A stretch of 30,753 nt of DNA from a virus, in IMG/VR virus record IMGVR_UViG_3300035698_014713, positions 1 through 30,753 of that record; one strand, given 5' to 3'. Made by a program: the position numbers and the translations under genes. Positions 3,306-25,555 of the stretch are shown piece after piece. The notes under the pieces are model-generated. The model saw only the letters and a list, made by a program, of their open reading frames with translations. It was not told the DNA's origin and ran no database searches. Each line of letters opens with the position of its first letter. The first letter of the stretch is position 1.

Positions 3306-4865
3306 TCACATCGATTTTGGCCTAGCTAAATGTAGCCGATCCAACGATACAGCCCAAGTAGCATCATCGGCATCCACGACTGTAACCTCTAGGCCGGAAA
3401 CCGTTTCGTACGGGTCACAATCCAACGTGGCGAAATACGGTTCGGTGCCATCATCTTCTTCGACGACCCACGCCGTGTCGCCCTTGGCCCACTTTTTACC
3501 ACGACGTTTACCTTTGCGATTCCCGCCGAGTTGCTTGCGGACTTTGGCTGATCGTTGTTTGATTTCGTCCTTTGATGGGTCTACGGCCTGGATTTGCAAT
3601 TCATCAGCCTCGGCTGAATTGCCGATGTCAATGCCGCCGACGGTAGGACACTCGGCCAGCGTTCGCACGTCGTCGCCATCTATGTGATAGGTCAGTGTGA
3701 TTAACTCATCGGTTACCGGCTTGTTGGTAGCATACAACATCCACGCCTTGACAATTAAGGCGCAGCGTTCGGCAACTGAGCCGCCACCGTCATCCAGTAT
3801 TTTGCCGAGGGCTGTGCGGACCGGCCGCAACTCGTCTGCACCGCTAGCCAGCATTACCCAAAAATCACAGGCACCATTCCACTGTGCCCAGTCCAGGTTT
3901 TGCTCGTTGGTGGAATCGGCAACTATGTATTGGGCCGGGTCCGTGGTGTTGCAACCCATTAGATAGAGCAAGCCAGAAGCGTATCCAGGTGAAATGTACT
4001 TAGTTATTTTTCGGCTCGGTCCATCGTCTTCTTCGTGTATGTGCTTCACACATTCGAGCAACTTGGGATGCTGAGTAAGAAAATCTAAACTCTCGGCATG
4101 CGTGCGACGTGGAGCAAACGCATTTGTATTGGCTCCTGTGCGGTGCCACAACAAGCGGATGGCGTAGTCACACACACGCGATAGTTTGCGTCGGTCACCG
4201 GCCGTGGTGTTCGCAAAAAATTGGCTGCGGTATAGCACGTCGGATAACGAACGTGGCTTGCAAGTGTCCATGGTATTAACTACGTCGTCGGTTTCGGGCA
4301 CACCAAATATCACAACCTTTTCCATGGTGGGCTCTTGGGGCCAATCCGACCATCGATCGCGGTGATCTTTCCACTCTTGAGCGGCTAGGATTAACGAGAC
4401 GAGTTGGTGTTGGCCGTTCAAGATTAAACCAGTGCATCCCACAATGATTGGTTCACCGTTGAGTCGCCATCGCTTGCGCAGGTGTTCTTGTTTGAGAGTA
4501 AGGTACACCTGCGAGTAGATGGGACGGTTTGTTACATTGTTGTAGCAGCGAATCTTGGTGCCGGCACTATCTTTGATAAAATAGTTGTTGCCAAACTTAA
4601 CTTGCTCGGTTTCCACCTCCCAGCCGAGTAGGTCACGAGCTTGGTTAGCAGTTATTGCATCGTTGCCGCAACAGAGTTTGGCAGTGGGCTTACCATGTTG
4701 TACTTCCCGACCGGATGCTTGGTCTTTTGCGGATTTCGCTTTTGGTTTTGCTTTTGCTTTTGCTTTTGGTTTTGCTTTTGCTTTTGGTTTTGCTTTTGCT
4801 TTTGCTTTCGCTCTTGGTTTCGCTTTAGGCTTGGGTGAACAAACTTTCTTCTTAGGGAGTGGCAT
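3306..4865 (-). CDS. Large GQH-motif (ParB/Srx-like) protein with histone-H1-like N-terminus
   Basis: A 519-residue protein from ATG 4865, which has AAAGGA upstream; the frame extends to 5012 but overlaps the next gene. Residues 1-45 are a Lys/Ala/Pro tract (repeated KAK, KPK units) like the tail of histone H1 and would bind DNA. The central part carries ILNGQHQLVSLILA, which resembles the GxHR motif of ParB/sulfiredoxin-fold domains, followed by CKPRSLSDVLYR. The C-terminal 60 residues resemble a small SH3-like beta barrel (GDTAWVVEEDDG). A paralogue lies at 19917-21269 and shares the central motifs but neither tail. A DNA-binding or nucleotide-dependent regulatory role is likely. The precise function is unknown. 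Confidence 0.75.
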   Translation of the reverse strand: MPLPKKKVCSPKPKAKPRAKAKAKAKPKAKAKPKAKAKAKPKAKSAKDQASGREVQHGKPTAKLCCGNDAITANQARDLLGWEVETEQVKFGNNYFIKDSAGTKIRCYNNVTNRPIYSQVYLTLKQEHLRKRWRLNGEPIIVGCTGLILNGQHQLVSLILAAQEWKDHRDRWSDWPQEPTMEKVVIFGVPETDDVVNTMDTCKPRSLSDVLYRSQFFANTTAGDRRKLSRVCDYAIRLLWHRTGANTNAFAPRRTHAESLDFLTQHPKLLECVKHIHEEDDGPSRKITKYISPGYASGLLYLMGCNTTDPAQYIVADSTNEQNLDWAQWNGACDFWVMLASGADELRPVRTALGKILDDGGGSVAERCALIVKAWMLYATNKPVTDELITLTYHIDGDDVRTLAECPTVGGIDIGNSAEADELQIQAVDPSKDEIKQRSAKVRKQLGGNRKGKRRGKKWAKGDTAWVVEEDDGTEPYFATLDCDPYETVSGLEVTVVDADDATWAVSLDRLHLARPKSM

Positions 4866-12755: not shown

Positions 12756-13577
12756 ATGCCCACGGTAAAGAAACAGAATACAAAACCACAACGGAACTTG
12801 AAGACAAAACGTAAGGGCGTAGTTGGTCGAATTGCGCCTATCGGCCTTGGTGACGCGATTATAAGAATGAACATCTACGGTCGTAGTGGTACAGGCAAAA
12901 CAACGCTGGCTTGTACTTTCCCCAAACCGCTGTTGCTGATCGGTACGGAGGACGGAACAAAATCGGTGCATAACGTCAAGGGCGTGGATTTTGTTCGCGT
13001 CTACAACAGTCAGGAATTGACTGAGGTTACTGAGCATTTGACAACCGGGGCGTACAAAACATGTGTGTTAGATAGTGCCAGCGGCCTTCAAGATTTGATT
13101 TTGAAAGAGATTTTAGGCTTGGATGAATTACCGGCACAAAAATCGTGGGGCATGGCTAGCCGCGAGCAGTATGGACAGTGTTCACTGCAAACCAAAGAGC
13201 GGTTGCGAGCGCTGTTGTCTCTGCAATGCAATGTTGTGATTTTAGCGCAGGAGCGAGAGTTCAATACGGAAGGGGAAGGCGAGTTGTTAATGCCGTTTGT
13301 TGCAAGTGCATTGACACCGAGCATAACCGGGTGGCTGAACCCCGCTTGTGACTATATTGCCCAAACATTTATTAGGTCAGCCGTAATTGAAAAGAAAACC
13401 AAAATTGGCAAAAAGGTCGTACGCACTCAGCAGAAAACCAGCGCGGTAGAATACTGTTTGAGGACCGCACCCAACCCAGTATACACGACAAAATTTCGCG
13501 TGCCCAAAGGATCGCCGTTGCCGGAAGTGATTATTGACCCGGACTTCGATAAAATCTATCACATTATACAAGGGTAA
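12756..13577 (+). CDS. Sak4-like RecA-fold ATPase
   Basis: A 273-residue P-loop ATPase. Walker A is GRSGTGKTTL at 42-51, and the Walker B Asp is D106 in KTCVLDSASGL. Around 25 basic residues precede the core. IGTEDGTKSVHNVKGVDFVRV matches the strand after Walker A in phage recombinases of the Sak4 (RecA/Rad51-like) group or the AAA_24 family. These act as single-strand annealing or ATP-dependent recombination factors and commonly sit next to a RecB-like nuclease and an SSB-like protein, as here. The ATG follows AAGGGAAAAGAAG. Confidence 0.8.
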   Translation: MPTVKKQNTKPQRNLKTKRKGVVGRIAPIGLGDAIIRMNIYGRSGTGKTTLACTFPKPLLLIGTEDGTKSVHNVKGVDFVRVYNSQELTEVTEHLTTGAYKTCVLDSASGLQDLILKEILGLDELPAQKSWGMASREQYGQCSLQTKERLRALLSLQCNVVILAQEREFNTEGEGELLMPFVASALTPSITGWLNPACDYIAQTFIRSAVIEKKTKIGKKVVRTQQKTSAVEYCLRTAPNPVYTTKFRVPKGSPLPEVIIDPDFDKIYHIIQG

Positions 13578-13869: not shown

Positions 13870-14862
13870 ATGCCAAGATCAGTAGGAAAGAGCGGTTTGG
13901 CCGGTAAGTTGGGAGCGACGGGGCGTAAGGCCGTCACCGCCCACAAGGCCGATCAAACGACGTATGGTGCCGGTGCCGATTTGCCCGGAGGGATTGAGGG
14001 CGGAATCGCCCAACTGACCGAATGCAAATTCGACAAGTACAAGAGCGGCGACAACACGGGAGAATACTACTTCCTTGCCGCCGGGATTGTCAAGCAACCT
14101 GCGGAGTCCAGCGGCGTTCCCATCCAAGGGCTTCGCACTCAGATTATGGAGCCAGTCTGCGATACGCCGACCCGCAGCCGACCGGACGTTGACGCCCACC
14201 TGGAGTGGGTTCTCAACGAAATGCGTAAACTGGGTGTCGATACCGGTGGTGCAGGTATCGACGACCTGGAAGACATGGCAGCGGCGATCAAAGAAGAGCA
14301 GCCGCACTTCCGCTTCCGCACCTGGCAAGGACAAAAGCAGACGGAAGGGCCATACGCCGGTCGCGAGCCTTTGGTGAACCACGATTGGCGAGGGGCCTGC
14401 GAGTACCAAGACGATGGGGACGAGCAGGACGATGTAGTTGATAAAACCGACGGCACCGACGACGACACCGTTGCCACCGACGACGTTCCTACCACCGTCG
14501 ATGACCTGGACTCCCTTGCCAAAGCCGCCGATGGTGGCGACGACGATGCTCAAGCGCAACTGGCCAATAGAGCAACTGTTTTGGACATTGACCATGAGGC
14601 GCACGAGTCGTGGACCAGTGTGGCCAGTGCAATCGTCGAGGCAAACGGAGACACCGAATCCGGAGAAGAGGAGGATGAGGACGATGGTAGCGAAGACCCG
14701 CAAAAAGGCGAGGTCTACCAGTTCAAACCGCCACGCGCCCGCAAAGCAGTGGAGTGTGAGGTTACGGCGGTGTTTGCCGGCAAGCAGACGTGCAACCTCA
14801 AGAACCTTGCCGATGGTAAGATTTACAAGGCCGTTGCTTGGGATAAGCTGCTAGACGCTTAG
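13870..14862 (+). CDS. Acidic protein near recombination genes, possibly SSB-like
   Basis: A 330-residue protein. The N-terminal 30 residues are basic, followed by a beta-rich region (LTECKFDKYKSGDNTGEYYFL, FRFRTWQG) that could form an OB-like or DUF669-like fold. Residues 180-290 are strongly acidic (runs of Asp/Glu and Thr), and the C-terminal 45 residues look like a small Tudor/SH3-type barrel (GEVYQFKPP, VECEVTAVF). The position after the Sak4-like ATPase and nuclease fits a single-stranded-DNA-binding partner, but I cannot show this from motifs. The gene is more GC-rich than its neighbours. AGAGAGG lies upstream of the ATG. Confidence 0.6.
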   Translation: MPRSVGKSGLAGKLGATGRKAVTAHKADQTTYGAGADLPGGIEGGIAQLTECKFDKYKSGDNTGEYYFLAAGIVKQPAESSGVPIQGLRTQIMEPVCDTPTRSRPDVDAHLEWVLNEMRKLGVDTGGAGIDDLEDMAAAIKEEQPHFRFRTWQGQKQTEGPYAGREPLVNHDWRGACEYQDDGDEQDDVVDKTDGTDDDTVATDDVPTTVDDLDSLAKAADGGDDDAQAQLANRATVLDIDHEAHESWTSVASAIVEANGDTESGEEEDEDDGSEDPQKGEVYQFKPPRARKAVECEVTAVFAGKQTCNLKNLADGKIYKAVAWDKLLDA

Positions 14863-14920: not shown

Positions 14921-15021
14921 GGTTCTGTTGCGATAAAGGATAATCGCACGTTGTAGCCACTCCTGGCGTCGAAAGACGAATGGAGATCGACGTTTTGTAG
15001 GTTCGATTCCTGCCGGAGCCA
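14921..15021 (+). tRNA. tRNA-like gene with unusual anticodon region
   Basis: A 101-base cloverleaf-like sequence. Acceptor GGTTCTG (14921-14927) pairs with CGGAGCC (15014-15020). D-stem GCGA/TCGC encloses a loop with GG. T-arm GTAGG-TTCGATT-CCTGC is canonical. The CGTTG/CGACG stem (14949-14953 with 14988-14992) sits where the anticodon stem should be, but it closes a 34-base loop that itself contains CGTC-GAAA-GACG. No normal 7-base anticodon loop is found, so no amino acid is assigned, and no CCA is encoded. It may be a tRNA with an insert or a tRNA-like structure. Confidence 0.55.
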
Positions 15022-15097
15022 CTGAGAAACTACTTATAGGTTTAGCATTCTCCAGACAACAACAGTAACCTACGAGCGGATGAGAGGTCCGTGTTTT

Positions 15098-15237
15098 GGT
15101 CCTGTGGCGGAATTGGTAAACGCTCCTAGCCGGCAATGGGAATTGAATCGGCGTAGGCTGGGGTCTCAGGCGGCGGTTGCACGCCGACAAGTCCGACTGT
15201 CATTTACGAGGTCCGGGTTCGACTCCCGGCAGGACCA
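15098..15237 (+). tRNA. tRNA-Leu-like gene with expanded interior
   Basis: Acceptor GGTCCTG (15098-15104) pairs perfectly with CAGGACC (15230-15236). The D-arm TGGCGGAATTGGTAAACGC is nearly the bacterial tRNA-Leu consensus, and the T-arm CCGGG-TTCGACT-CCCGG is canonical. The gene is 140 bases, about 55 more than a normal tRNA-Leu. The interior folds as other stems: CCTAGCC/GGCTGGG and, as an alternative, TCGGCGT (15148-15154) with ACGCCGA (15181-15187). No standard anticodon loop is evident and no CCA is encoded. An insert in the anticodon arm or a tRNA mimic are both possible. Confidence 0.6.
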
Positions 15238-23125: not shown

Positions 23126-25555
23126 TTGCCAAAGTTGTCTGAAGCGGTTCGATTGCCCGCTGTAGCAAGCCCACAGAAGCCTCTGTGCGGTCGCCTGGAG
23201 GGATTGGAGAGGCTATTGCGGTATTTATCTCCTATACCTAAAGAGTGGCTAAACGGGGACGCCCCTGTGTCCGATAAATCTACGAGTAGCAACGGCGAGG
23301 CGTATATGGAATGTGTGGACTGCCGGGAGTACCGAACGTTGGTTACGGCGTGGCGCAAAGCACTGAAATGGACGCCGGGATTGGATCACGCATTGAGTGT
23401 CATGTTGGCATCGGTTGCATCCACAAAGAGCGTCGGCGACCAGTTATGGATCAAAGTGATTGGACCAGCGGCTTGTTTGGATGGGGATATCCCAATCCAT
23501 GACCCTACGAATGGGAGTACAAAAACAGTTGCAGAGCGGTGGAAAGATGGTAAGAAATTTTTTGTCTACACGCAATTTAAGGGAGAGATAGGTATTACCC
23601 AAGCAATGCCGCCGCAAAGGTATAAACCCGCACTGATGTACGATGTGGTGTTTGCATCCGGCAGGAGCATTCGAGTTACCGGCGGCCACCGCTTTTGGAA
23701 CGGCTCTTCTTACGTTGCTGTCGGCACCATTTGCGATGCGCTGCGGCAATTCGCTTTCTACCGTCTTCCGTCCATTTCGGGCAGCGGCCTTTTAGCTCGG
23801 CAGCAAGATGCTCCCCGTTCGTCGCAAAGAGTTCGAGGTTATCAATGCGGTTGTCATGCTTCTTCCCATTACAATGGTGAACTACTTCCCCAGGGCGGAG
23901 GTGTCTTCCAAGATGCTTTTCCATTACTAAGCGGTGTTCTAGGATGTAACCGCACCGCTTACAGTGTGGATGGTCTGGATAGCGGACGTAGACATACTCA
24001 CCAACATGGCGTCCACCCTTCCAGTTTGGATTCTGTTCTACCTTGCCGGTTGCCTCGAAGTAGAACAGAATCGGAATTCCGGTCTGTTGAAGATACTTAC
24101 GGACGGTGTGGCGGTTTGCGTGCATCTTCTGTGCTGTCTTTGCCACAGACAATCCAGATCGATAGAAGCCAACCATCCGCTGGATTCGCTCTTTCGTCCA
24201 AGGGGCAAACCGACAAGCAATCCCTTGCTGTTTCAGAATTTTGCACACATGGGCCTGTCCGGCCTTCAACTCCTTTGCAACCTGGTCTTGAGAAAATCCC
24301 TGTGAATAGAGGTGTACGCACAGGTCGATCTTTTTCTGGCTCCATGGTTTCATGGCATACTCCAATTTTTAGGGAAAGTAAACGGTACGGCCCTATTACT
24401 CTAACAGATAAGGTTATCTCTGTAAAGGCTTGCGGTGAAAAGCCCTATTACGATTTCCATGTACCGGAGACGCAGAACTATTGGGCGAATGGTGTGTTTC
24501 ATCACAACTGCGGAAAATCGACTCTATGTGAGGCGATCAGTGTTAATCGGGAGTACGTGGTTGCAAAAAGTACGATCCGGGGATTCCACAGTGGGTATAA
24601 GTCGGATGGTGGCGATGAAGAACAGGACCACAGTTTAATTCCGACAATTCGAGATAAGACGCTCGTGACAAAAGATGGCGATACGCTATTGCAAAGTCCC
24701 AACTTGTCGCAGATTTTAGCAGAGGCGCGAGACTTGTACGATAGCACCTGCCGCACCCACTACCGTAACGCAATGAGCAAGGATTACAGTGGAATTCGGA
24801 TGACGTGGTTGCTGTGTGGTACGAGTTCGTTGAGAGCAATTGATAGCAGCGAGTTGGGCGAGCGTTTCTTGGACTGTGTTATTATGGATGGTATTGATGA
24901 TGAGTTGGAGGACGAGGTGCTGTGGCGAGTGGCGAACCGTGCGAGTCGCAATTTGGTGTACGAGTCCGACGGTAAAGCCGAAACTCAATACGAACCAGAA
25001 CTGGCTAAAGCGATGCAACTAACCGGGGGTTACGTTGCATACTTGCGGGAGAACGCCATTGGTAAGCTATCGACAATTGATTACCCACCGTGGGCGATGC
25101 GACAATGCACCAAATTGGGAAAGTTTGTTGCGCATATGCGAGCAAGACCCAGCCAACACCAGGAAGAAAACGCTGAACGTGAATTTGGTGCCCGGTTGGT
25201 AAGCCAGCATGTACGATTGGCCGCATGTTTGGCGTTGGTGTTAAATTGCGACCAGATAAATCAAGAAGTGATGCGACGCACTACGCAAGTGGCGATGGAT
25301 ACCAGCCGTGGACAGACGTTGGATATTGCGGCACATTTGTATACTGCCGGCCGCGATGGAAGAGAAGTGCGGGGATTGAGTCTATTCACTAACCGCACGG
25401 AAGAGAAAACACGCGGTATGTTGCGGTTCCTAAAACAGATCGGGGTAGTGGAACTGTTTAGCGCAAAGGCCAAAGGGATCACAAGCAAGGCACGGTGGAG
25501 ATTAACAACCCGTATGCACCAATTGTATAAAGACGTGGTAGAACCAGATGCCTAG
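23126..25555 (+). CDS. P-loop replicative helicase-like ATPase interrupted by an intein
   Basis: An 809-residue precursor. Removing the 345-residue intein gives a 464-residue protein with Walker A GPAACGKST restored across the junction. Beyond it are LCGTSSL and ELGERFLDC, resembling sensor and arginine-finger regions of AAA+ or SF3-like ATPases. The N-terminal part contains CVDC and a charged helix. The location directly after the primase, 16 bases away, supports a helicase or primase-loading role. The start is a TTG with AGAGGA upstream. The helicase family cannot be stated firmly. Confidence 0.78.
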   Translation: MPKLSEAVRLPAVASPQKPLCGRLEGLERLLRYLSPIPKEWLNGDAPVSDKSTSSNGEAYMECVDCREYRTLVTAWRKALKWTPGLDHALSVMLASVASTKSVGDQLWIKVIGPAACLDGDIPIHDPTNGSTKTVAERWKDGKKFFVYTQFKGEIGITQAMPPQRYKPALMYDVVFASGRSIRVTGGHRFWNGSSYVAVGTICDALRQFAFYRLPSISGSGLLARQQDAPRSSQRVRGYQCGCHASSHYNGELLPQGGGVFQDAFPLLSGVLGCNRTAYSVDGLDSGRRHTHQHGVHPSSLDSVLPCRLPRSRTESEFRSVEDTYGRCGGLRASSVLSLPQTIQIDRSQPSAGFALSSKGQTDKQSLAVSEFCTHGPVRPSTPLQPGLEKIPVNRGVRTGRSFSGSMVSWHTPIFRESKRYGPITLTDKVISVKACGEKPYYDFHVPETQNYWANGVFHHNCGKSTLCEAISVNREYVVAKSTIRGFHSGYKSDGGDEEQDHSLIPTIRDKTLVTKDGDTLLQSPNLSQILAEARDLYDSTCRTHYRNAMSKDYSGIRMTWLLCGTSSLRAIDSSELGERFLDCVIMDGIDDELEDEVLWRVANRASRNLVYESDGKAETQYEPELAKAMQLTGGYVAYLRENAIGKLSTIDYPPWAMRQCTKLGKFVAHMRARPSQHQEENAEREFGARLVSQHVRLAACLALVLNCDQINQEVMRRTTQVAMDTSRGQTLDIAAHLYTAGRDGREVRGLSLFTNRTEEKTRGMLRFLKQIGVVELFSAKAKGITSKARWRLTTRMHQLYKDVVEPDA
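23474..24508 (+). other. Intein within the helicase Walker A motif
   Basis: Splice junctions: the intein starts with Cys (CLDGDIPI, block A) after GPAA and ends HHN before Cys (C-extein CGKST). Block B is RVTGGHRF. Block F is around YYDFHVPETQNYWANG and block G is GVFHHN. All the residues required for splicing are present (Cys1, block B Thr/His, penultimate His, terminal Asn, +1 Cys). The sense frame between about 23760 and 24360 has no recognisable endonuclease motif. A homing endonuclease lies there on the other strand. Because the intein interrupts the ATP-binding loop, helicase activity depends on protein splicing. Confidence 0.88.
23676..24353 (-). CDS. HNH homing endonuclease antisense to the intein
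   Basis: A 225-residue endonuclease. The ATG at 24353 has GGAG six bases upstream; a TTG four codons earlier also opens the frame. Two helix-turn-helix-like units come first (DQVAKELKAGQAHVCKILKQ and VAKTAQKMHANRHTVRKYL). Next is YVYVRYPDHPHCKRCG. The HNH core is LEHRLVMEKHLGR, then VVHHCNGKKHDNRIDNLEL. The tail is basic. The gene reads opposite to the host protein, and its 3' end overlaps the block B coding part of the intein. It presumably mobilises the intein by cutting intein-free helicase genes. Confidence 0.88.
   Translation of the reverse strand: MKPWSQKKIDLCVHLYSQGFSQDQVAKELKAGQAHVCKILKQQGIACRFAPWTKERIQRMVGFYRSGLSVAKTAQKMHANRHTVRKYLQQTGIPILFYFEATGKVEQNPNWKGGRHVGEYVYVRYPDHPHCKRCGYILEHRLVMEKHLGRHLRPGEVVHHCNGKKHDNRIDNLELFATNGEHLAAELKGRCPKWTEDGRKRIAAAHRKWCRQQRKKSRSKSGGRR

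Follow-up and report, generated by a model that had tools for sequence, protein, structure and literature searches.

Phage RNAs with a tRNA body and no anticodon arm recur at one locus and are probably stand-ins for tRNA

Why would a phage encode, side by side, two RNAs with the outer arms of a tRNA around a centre that has no anticodon arm? The question is raised by a virus contig of 30,753 bases, the whole of which is called here the window, whose phage genes encode a PolA-type polymerase, an exonuclease, a primase and a small terminase subunit. A preliminary description of the sequence had picked out two tRNA-like genes of 101 and 140 nt with abnormal anticodon regions; they lie behind the gene named here q. 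Coordinates and lengths were borne out, and neither element has a canonical anticodon arm. The features of the locus are the following:

13870..14862 (+): gene q, the acidic upstream neighbour of the two elements, whose homologues identify this locus in 67 distinct phage loci
14894..14920 (+): terminator-like hairpin with T run, reaching right up to the first base of element 1, so that the −1 base is T
14921..15021 (+): element 1, predicted tRNA-like RNA of 101 nt with intact acceptor, D and T arms and without an anticodon arm
14921-14927 with 15014-15020 (+): acceptor of element 1, GGTTCTG/CGGAGCC, 7 pairs including 2 G-U
14930-14947 (+): D arm of element 1, GCGAT-AAAGGATA-ATCGC
14948..14996 (+): abnormal centre of element 1, an extended arm CGTTG...CGACG in place of the 7-nt anticodon loop (minimum-energy fold)
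14997-15013 (+): T arm of element 1, GTAGG-TTCGATT-CCTGC
15021 (+): discriminator of element 1, A
15022..15023 (+): start of the 3′ trailer of element 1, CT after the discriminator, with its T at +2, the position that activates RNase Z
15022..15097 (+): conserved linker joining element 1 to element 2, 76% identical to that of the related phage L052
15024-15028 with 15048-15052 (+): helix 1 of a predicted H-type pseudoknot in the linker, GAGAA/TTCTC
15037-15042 with 15067-15072 (+): helix 2 of the same pseudoknot, TAGGTT/AACCTA
about 15077-15091 (+): predicted hairpin in the linker, CGGA/TCCG
15098..15237 (+): element 2, predicted tRNA-like RNA of 140 nt with a D arm like that of bacterial tRNA-Leu and without an anticodon arm
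15098-15104 with 15230-15236 (+): acceptor of element 2, GGTCCTG/CAGGACC, 7 Watson-Crick pairs
15124..15212 (+): abnormal centre of element 2, without a canonical anticodon arm, with possible crossing helices AGCC/GGCT and TCGGCGT/ACGCCGA
15213-15229 (+): T arm of element 2, stem CCGGG/CCCGG
15237 (+): discriminator of element 2, A

The outer arms had been called perfect, which holds for the acceptor of element 2 and is slightly generous for that of element 1, given its two G-U pairs. The minimum-energy fold of element 1 (−36.8 kcal/mol, z −3.07) consists of a tRNA body and a long extended arm with a GAAA loop, whose inner helices are CTCC/GGAG and CGTC-GAAA-GACG. Of the two alternative stem-loops proposed earlier, the GAAA loop is thus part of the fold, whereas the GGGA hairpin of element 2 (CAAT-GGGA-ATTG) can form but is absent from the minimum-energy structure. 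The crossing helices in the centre of element 2 would give a pseudoknot topology common to the window and L052; in the window sequence 11% of shuffles reach it, and a pseudoknot was therefore not adopted there. The centre of the second element of L052 (2907-2975) may form one from TGGCTT/AAGCCA and GATCGTT/AACGATC, which 0.25% of shuffles reach.

Neither element behaves as an ordinary tRNA in prediction. With default settings ARAGORN predicts no tRNA in the window, and with introns allowed it returns forced, poor solutions whose anticodon varies with the option chosen. The Rfam tRNA model scores element 1 at 26.4 bits (E 3.6e-5), under the Rfam cut-off, and reaches 41.9 bits (E 8e-6) with element 2 only when 76 nt are skipped at the anticodon position, so that no normal anticodon loop emerges. 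The elements possess the outer arms and the TTC and GG elbow bases of a canonical tRNA and lack its 5-bp anticodon stem, 7-nt loop, U33 and purine 37. No significant Rfam match to a Group I intron, a ribozyme or tmRNA was obtained within the elements. A Group I intron was rejected, no match appearing at E 5 with permissive filters and the inserts being too short; Group I cores typically exceed 200 nt. For tmRNA the Rfam score was at chance level (18.8 bits, 47 being needed), ARAGORN detected none, and lengths of 101 and 140 nt compare with a body of about 350 nt.

The same tandem pair lies after q in L052. Outer arms are 66 and 80% identical between the two phages in element 1, and 89 and 64% in element 2, while the centres are weakly alignable in element 1 (z 3.2) and unalignable in element 2 (z −0.5). 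The pseudoknot of the linker (15024-15072 in the window) has its counterpart at 2810-2857 of L052, and the outermost pair of helix 2 is T-A in the window and A-T in L052, a single compensatory change between two sequences. A search of viral contigs for the pseudoknot pattern matched the contig of L052 only, and an exact-pattern search of the same kind for the 5′ end of element 2 gave no match. Since L052 carries the same pair with the same linker, the tandem arrangement predates the split of the two phages; the duplication suggested in the preliminary description is therefore at most an old one.

Relatives of the locus were sought through the polymerase and a Sak4-like ATPase, whose homologues gave about 130 viral loci, all the related contigs being metagenomic; DNA-level searches of phage and plasmid records gave matches at chance level only. 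The order of q and its neighbours is kept across the related loci. The q homologues were reached via these neighbouring genes; the q protein as a single-sequence query confirmed no homologue. Its N-terminal part is weakly like the ssDNA-binding protein PrgE and is accompanied by an acidic linker (matches not significant), and its C-terminal part gives a low-significance structural match to Tudor/SH3-like domains. Elsewhere in the window, an ORF at 23126-25555 contains the end of an intein-like splicing domain (residues 427-461; sub-threshold in Pfam).

A scan for outer arms over the 1 kb downstream of q in the 67 distinct loci gave 31 matches in 20 regions, compared with 0.35 per 67 kb of shuffled sequence, bearing in mind that the matches are not all separate genes, as a single T arm may have several possible acceptors upstream. 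The reverse strand gave none, and 671 kb of other sequence gave 8. In a test that avoids circularity by not requiring an acceptor, 33 perfect T arms were found in the regions downstream of q, and in 24 of these an acceptor partner of 7 bp, six or more of them Watson-Crick, lies upstream, as against 7% in shuffles. Elements were sorted into normal and abnormal ones by eye and with a rule asking for a 5-bp stem, a 7-nt loop, U33 and a purine at 37, which describes all 10 normal tRNAs and 1 of the 24 abnormal elements (L056, weakly). The family so defined comprises 24 abnormal elements of 68 to 232 nt in 17 phages, and 10 ordinary tRNAs in six phages. Some phages thus keep at the same site the canonical relatives whose search had been suggested, and L008 carries both kinds. 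The preliminary description's idea of a tRNA mimic gains support here, the 24 elements all keeping a tRNA body without an anticodon arm.

Every abnormal element carries GG in its D region and TTC in its T loop, and pairing in the acceptor and T stem is kept through many different base pairs, these acceptor and T-loop features partly reflecting selection at detection. The central region, by contrast with these parts, is hypervariable. Several phages have two or more elements. The D stem is wholly absent in some. Short elements and those without a D stem are assigned to the family by few features; of all members, L041, L069, L051b and L036b are the least certain. Two D-stem-less elements from phages far apart, L036a (L036 5718-5790) and L120 (9951-10018), have in common the motif GTGTGGTA-hairpin-GATAGGGCA. 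In one case, L011b (176 nt), the abnormal element precedes the Sak4-like gene instead of following q; L011 also encodes a Type II hammerhead ribozyme at 13384-13456 (−), over the Rfam cut-off. Over a quick tree built from 64 polymerases the abnormal, normal and absent states are scattered, and well-supported branches force at least 10 changes of the abnormal state, from which it follows that elements have often been gained and lost at the same site. As 43 of the 64 rows are without one, the element is dispensable.

An indication that the elements are matured as tRNAs comes from a base that was never used in their detection. The second base after the discriminator (+2) is T in 23 of the 24 abnormal elements (p about 3e-14), in all 10 normal phage tRNAs (p 3e-7) and in 32 of the 33 T-arm matches taken without an acceptor requirement (background 0.226). 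None of the 24 encodes CCA. On CCA-less tRNA precursors of B. subtilis, RNase Z is stimulated about 200-fold by a uracil no more than 2 nt from the discriminator (PMC10100781, which credits the result to Pellegrini 2012). These substrate features, no CCA and a U not more than 2 nt past the discriminator, are found in 23 of the 24 members, element 1 included, and because the +2 T corresponds to the activating uracil of CCA-less precursors the elements appear to be matured like tRNAs. The single exception in the family is element 2, whose trailer CCT has its T at +3; a trailer starting with CC is a poor RNase Z substrate. On the 5′ side, the base preceding G1 is T in 15 of the 24, and the discriminators are A in 16, T in 4, G in 3 and C in 1. 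Most simply, one set of enzymes would mature both the abnormal and the normal elements, and the shared signature at their ends further favours mimicry of tRNA.

The architecture has a parallel in phage T4. Species 1 RNA (rnaC) is a stable late RNA of 139 nt from the T4 tRNA locus, detected by Northern blot and with no known role (PMC9697503; PMC3014915). It occupies NC_000866 70908-71046 (L176 909-1047, −) and adjoins the T4 tRNA genes. We find in it a perfect T arm, CCGGG-TTCGAAT-CCCGG, an acceptor CGATTCG/CGTTTCG with two U-U mismatches, and a long structured centre without an anticodon arm. Among four sequences, one acceptor pair changes from A-U to G-C and one T-stem pair from G-C to U-A, and the proportion paired is 97.5% in the structure, compared with 35-55% in shifted versions. 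In relatives from other T-even-like phages the pairing is kept and the T loop is lost in some; matches extend to 710 phage records, reported by genus, in a collection separate from the present contigs. Rfam and its tRNA model do not detect rnaC, and no published description of its tRNA-like ends was found in the open literature, a search whose scope did not extend to the papers of the 1980s. T4 species 2 RNA (rnaD) was also inspected for a T arm and none was seen. RnaC and the present family thus have in common a T arm and an acceptor helix that enclose a long centre other than an anticodon arm, encoded where a phage has its tRNA locus. They differ in that rnaC has mismatches in its acceptor, no clear D arm and relatives without the T loop, that its host is E. 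coli, and that no sequence similarity between the two is apparent; by architecture alone, the present family is a variant of the rnaC kind.

Other known RNAs are similar in some respects and different in others. The phage tRNAs that evade tRNA-directed defences (PMC10264068, PMC11555353) are also tRNA bodies in a dedicated locus with a possible counter-defence role, but they decode, their anticodon loop differing from a normal one by point changes, whereas here the arm is absent. MascRNA, cut by RNase P and RNase Z, is likewise a tRNA-like body without an anticodon arm on the 3′ side of a longer transcript, and L004 and element 2 show weak, sub-threshold Rfam similarity to RNAs of this type; unlike the present elements, it is eukaryotic, single and about 60 nt long. 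In tmRNA too, RNA of another kind stands between tRNA-like ends where an anticodon arm would be, but in the present elements no tag reading frame was found, or is expected at this length, and a D arm with GG is retained.

Taking into account the outer arms, the missing anticodon arm, the syntenic recurrence, the 3′ signature and the hypervariable centre, we propose that both elements are genuine, tRNA-processed, non-decoding RNAs, a conclusion drawn from sequence in which we are highly confident. They are probably stand-ins for tRNA and not decoders of the genetic code. In the model, acceptor stem, D/T elbow and T arm make up the tRNA body of this family of phage RNAs, in which the anticodon arm has been swapped for a fast-changing RNA domain. 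The elements would be transcribed together with the locus downstream of q, no shared promoter being found upstream of either window element. RNase P would cleave before G1 and RNase Z after the discriminator, aided by the +2 U; subsequent addition of CCA would yield stable RNAs unable to decode. These would present the acceptor end and the elbow in trans to a host or defence protein, which would be occupied or misled. Any protein that recognises the acceptor end and the elbow is a conceivable target, Cas12a3 being an example of a defence that does so (PMC12851939). A trans-acting mimic function as such we put forward tentatively, at somewhat less than even chances, and the whole explanation, processed non-decoding RNAs acting in trans as mimics of tRNA ends, we consider evenly poised between right and wrong. 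It has to accommodate the trailer of element 2 without a +2 U, the dispensability of the elements in most tree rows, and the fact that a pure processing signal would preserve the outer arms just as well.

That last point leads to the rather unlikely alternative that the tRNA-like bodies are only cut sites, by which the q mRNA receives its 3′ end and the following mRNA its 5′ end while the centre drifts freely. The fixed place right after q would suit such a role, as would the retention of only those parts read by RNase P and RNase Z, the processing signature, and the hairpin with T run that abuts the 5′ end of many family elements. However, the upstream hairpin is only modestly enriched near the elements and is not a universal part, most phages of the clade manage with the hairpin alone, and neither the tandem elements of several phages nor the long structured centres are necessary for one cut. 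In L008, a normal tRNA at the site has its own sigma-70 promoter with 12 of 12 consensus positions, which points to the RNA itself as the product; this tRNA (4345-4447) has a CUA anticodon (amber suppressor) and lies directly behind the promoter. Because of the tandem copies, the structured centres, the rapid turnover and the L008 promoter, we prefer an RNA that acts in trans as a mimic to one that serves for cutting alone. An improbable further alternative is that some elements are charged without decoding, and deliver amino acids outside translation or sequester a synthetase or EF-Tu. LeuRS, SerRS and AlaRS do not need the anticodon, and element 2, both elements of L052 (L052a/b) and L011b combine a Leu-type D arm with A73; many members, however, are not Leu-like, the discriminators vary, and no recipient pathway is visible beside the elements. 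The decoy for anticodon nucleases imagined in the preliminary description would need a nuclease-bindable anticodon loop, and this bait is exactly the missing part, so that the idea is disfavoured.

The other alternatives deny the RNAs their unusual form or any function. Small introns within or close to the anticodon loop, removed by some unknown splicing activity of bacterial or phage origin, would explain the extended arm at the anticodon position of some members, and tRNA introns are spliced in archaea, to which a polymerase homologue in an archaeon-labelled MAG might point. When any single contiguous deletion within the loop was allowed to restore a canonical arm, class II variants with a long variable arm included, 3 of the 18 longer members were solved (L080, L056 and L036b; 0.5 expected by chance), compared with 8 of 14 long candidate intron-bearing tRNAs of an archaeal MAG used as a positive control, a test not fully sensitive, as the unsolved controls include tRNAs with long variable arms and other insertion sites. 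No such deletion restores the arm in either window element, contrary to the earlier suggestion of tiny removable inserts, and L011a, L036a and L120, whose length does not exceed that of a normal tRNA, still lack the arm. The clade's normal tRNAs are of bacterial type and L008 has a consensus sigma-70 promoter. Introns are a very unlikely explanation. Judged by tRNA type and promoter, the hosts would be bacterial. The archaeon-labelled MAG (L082; genome G048 contig C74 144400-148200, L175) holds a clade phage contig, the sole genome match of the clade, and a contig with a phage-like array of 32 tRNAs, which suggests that viral contigs were binned into it; this, with the bacterial type of the clade's own tRNAs, led us to discard an archaeal host. 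Finally, decaying tRNA genes or assembly artefacts without function would fit the patchy distribution, the many gains and losses and the hypervariable centres. In decay, however, the acceptor and T arms would be lost too, whereas base pairing is conserved along with the bases of the elbow and the T at +2, and the tandem pair with its linker persists between phages with strongly diverged polymerases; the independent contigs L029 and L030 have the same element, which argues against an artefact. We regard this last possibility as hardly credible.

The preferred reading, processed non-decoding RNAs that mimic tRNA ends in trans, could be extended to a widespread, previously unrecognised class of phage counter-defence RNAs, tRNA-processed decoys in which the hypervariable domain sets the target and to which T4 species 1 RNA would belong; so broad a claim is speculative and, as we see it, unlikely to hold in full. 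Standard annotation overlooks these genes, as ARAGORN and Rfam detect none or some of them. A phage lineage appears to have repeatedly turned tRNA genes at one site into non-decoding RNAs, and the parts that it keeps are exactly those recognised by tRNA-maturing enzymes and by defences directed at tRNA ends. The link with rnaC makes an old question testable, since tRNA-like ends predict that this RNA would depend on RNase P and on a tRNA 3′-end enzyme, and that it would have a tRNA-binding partner.
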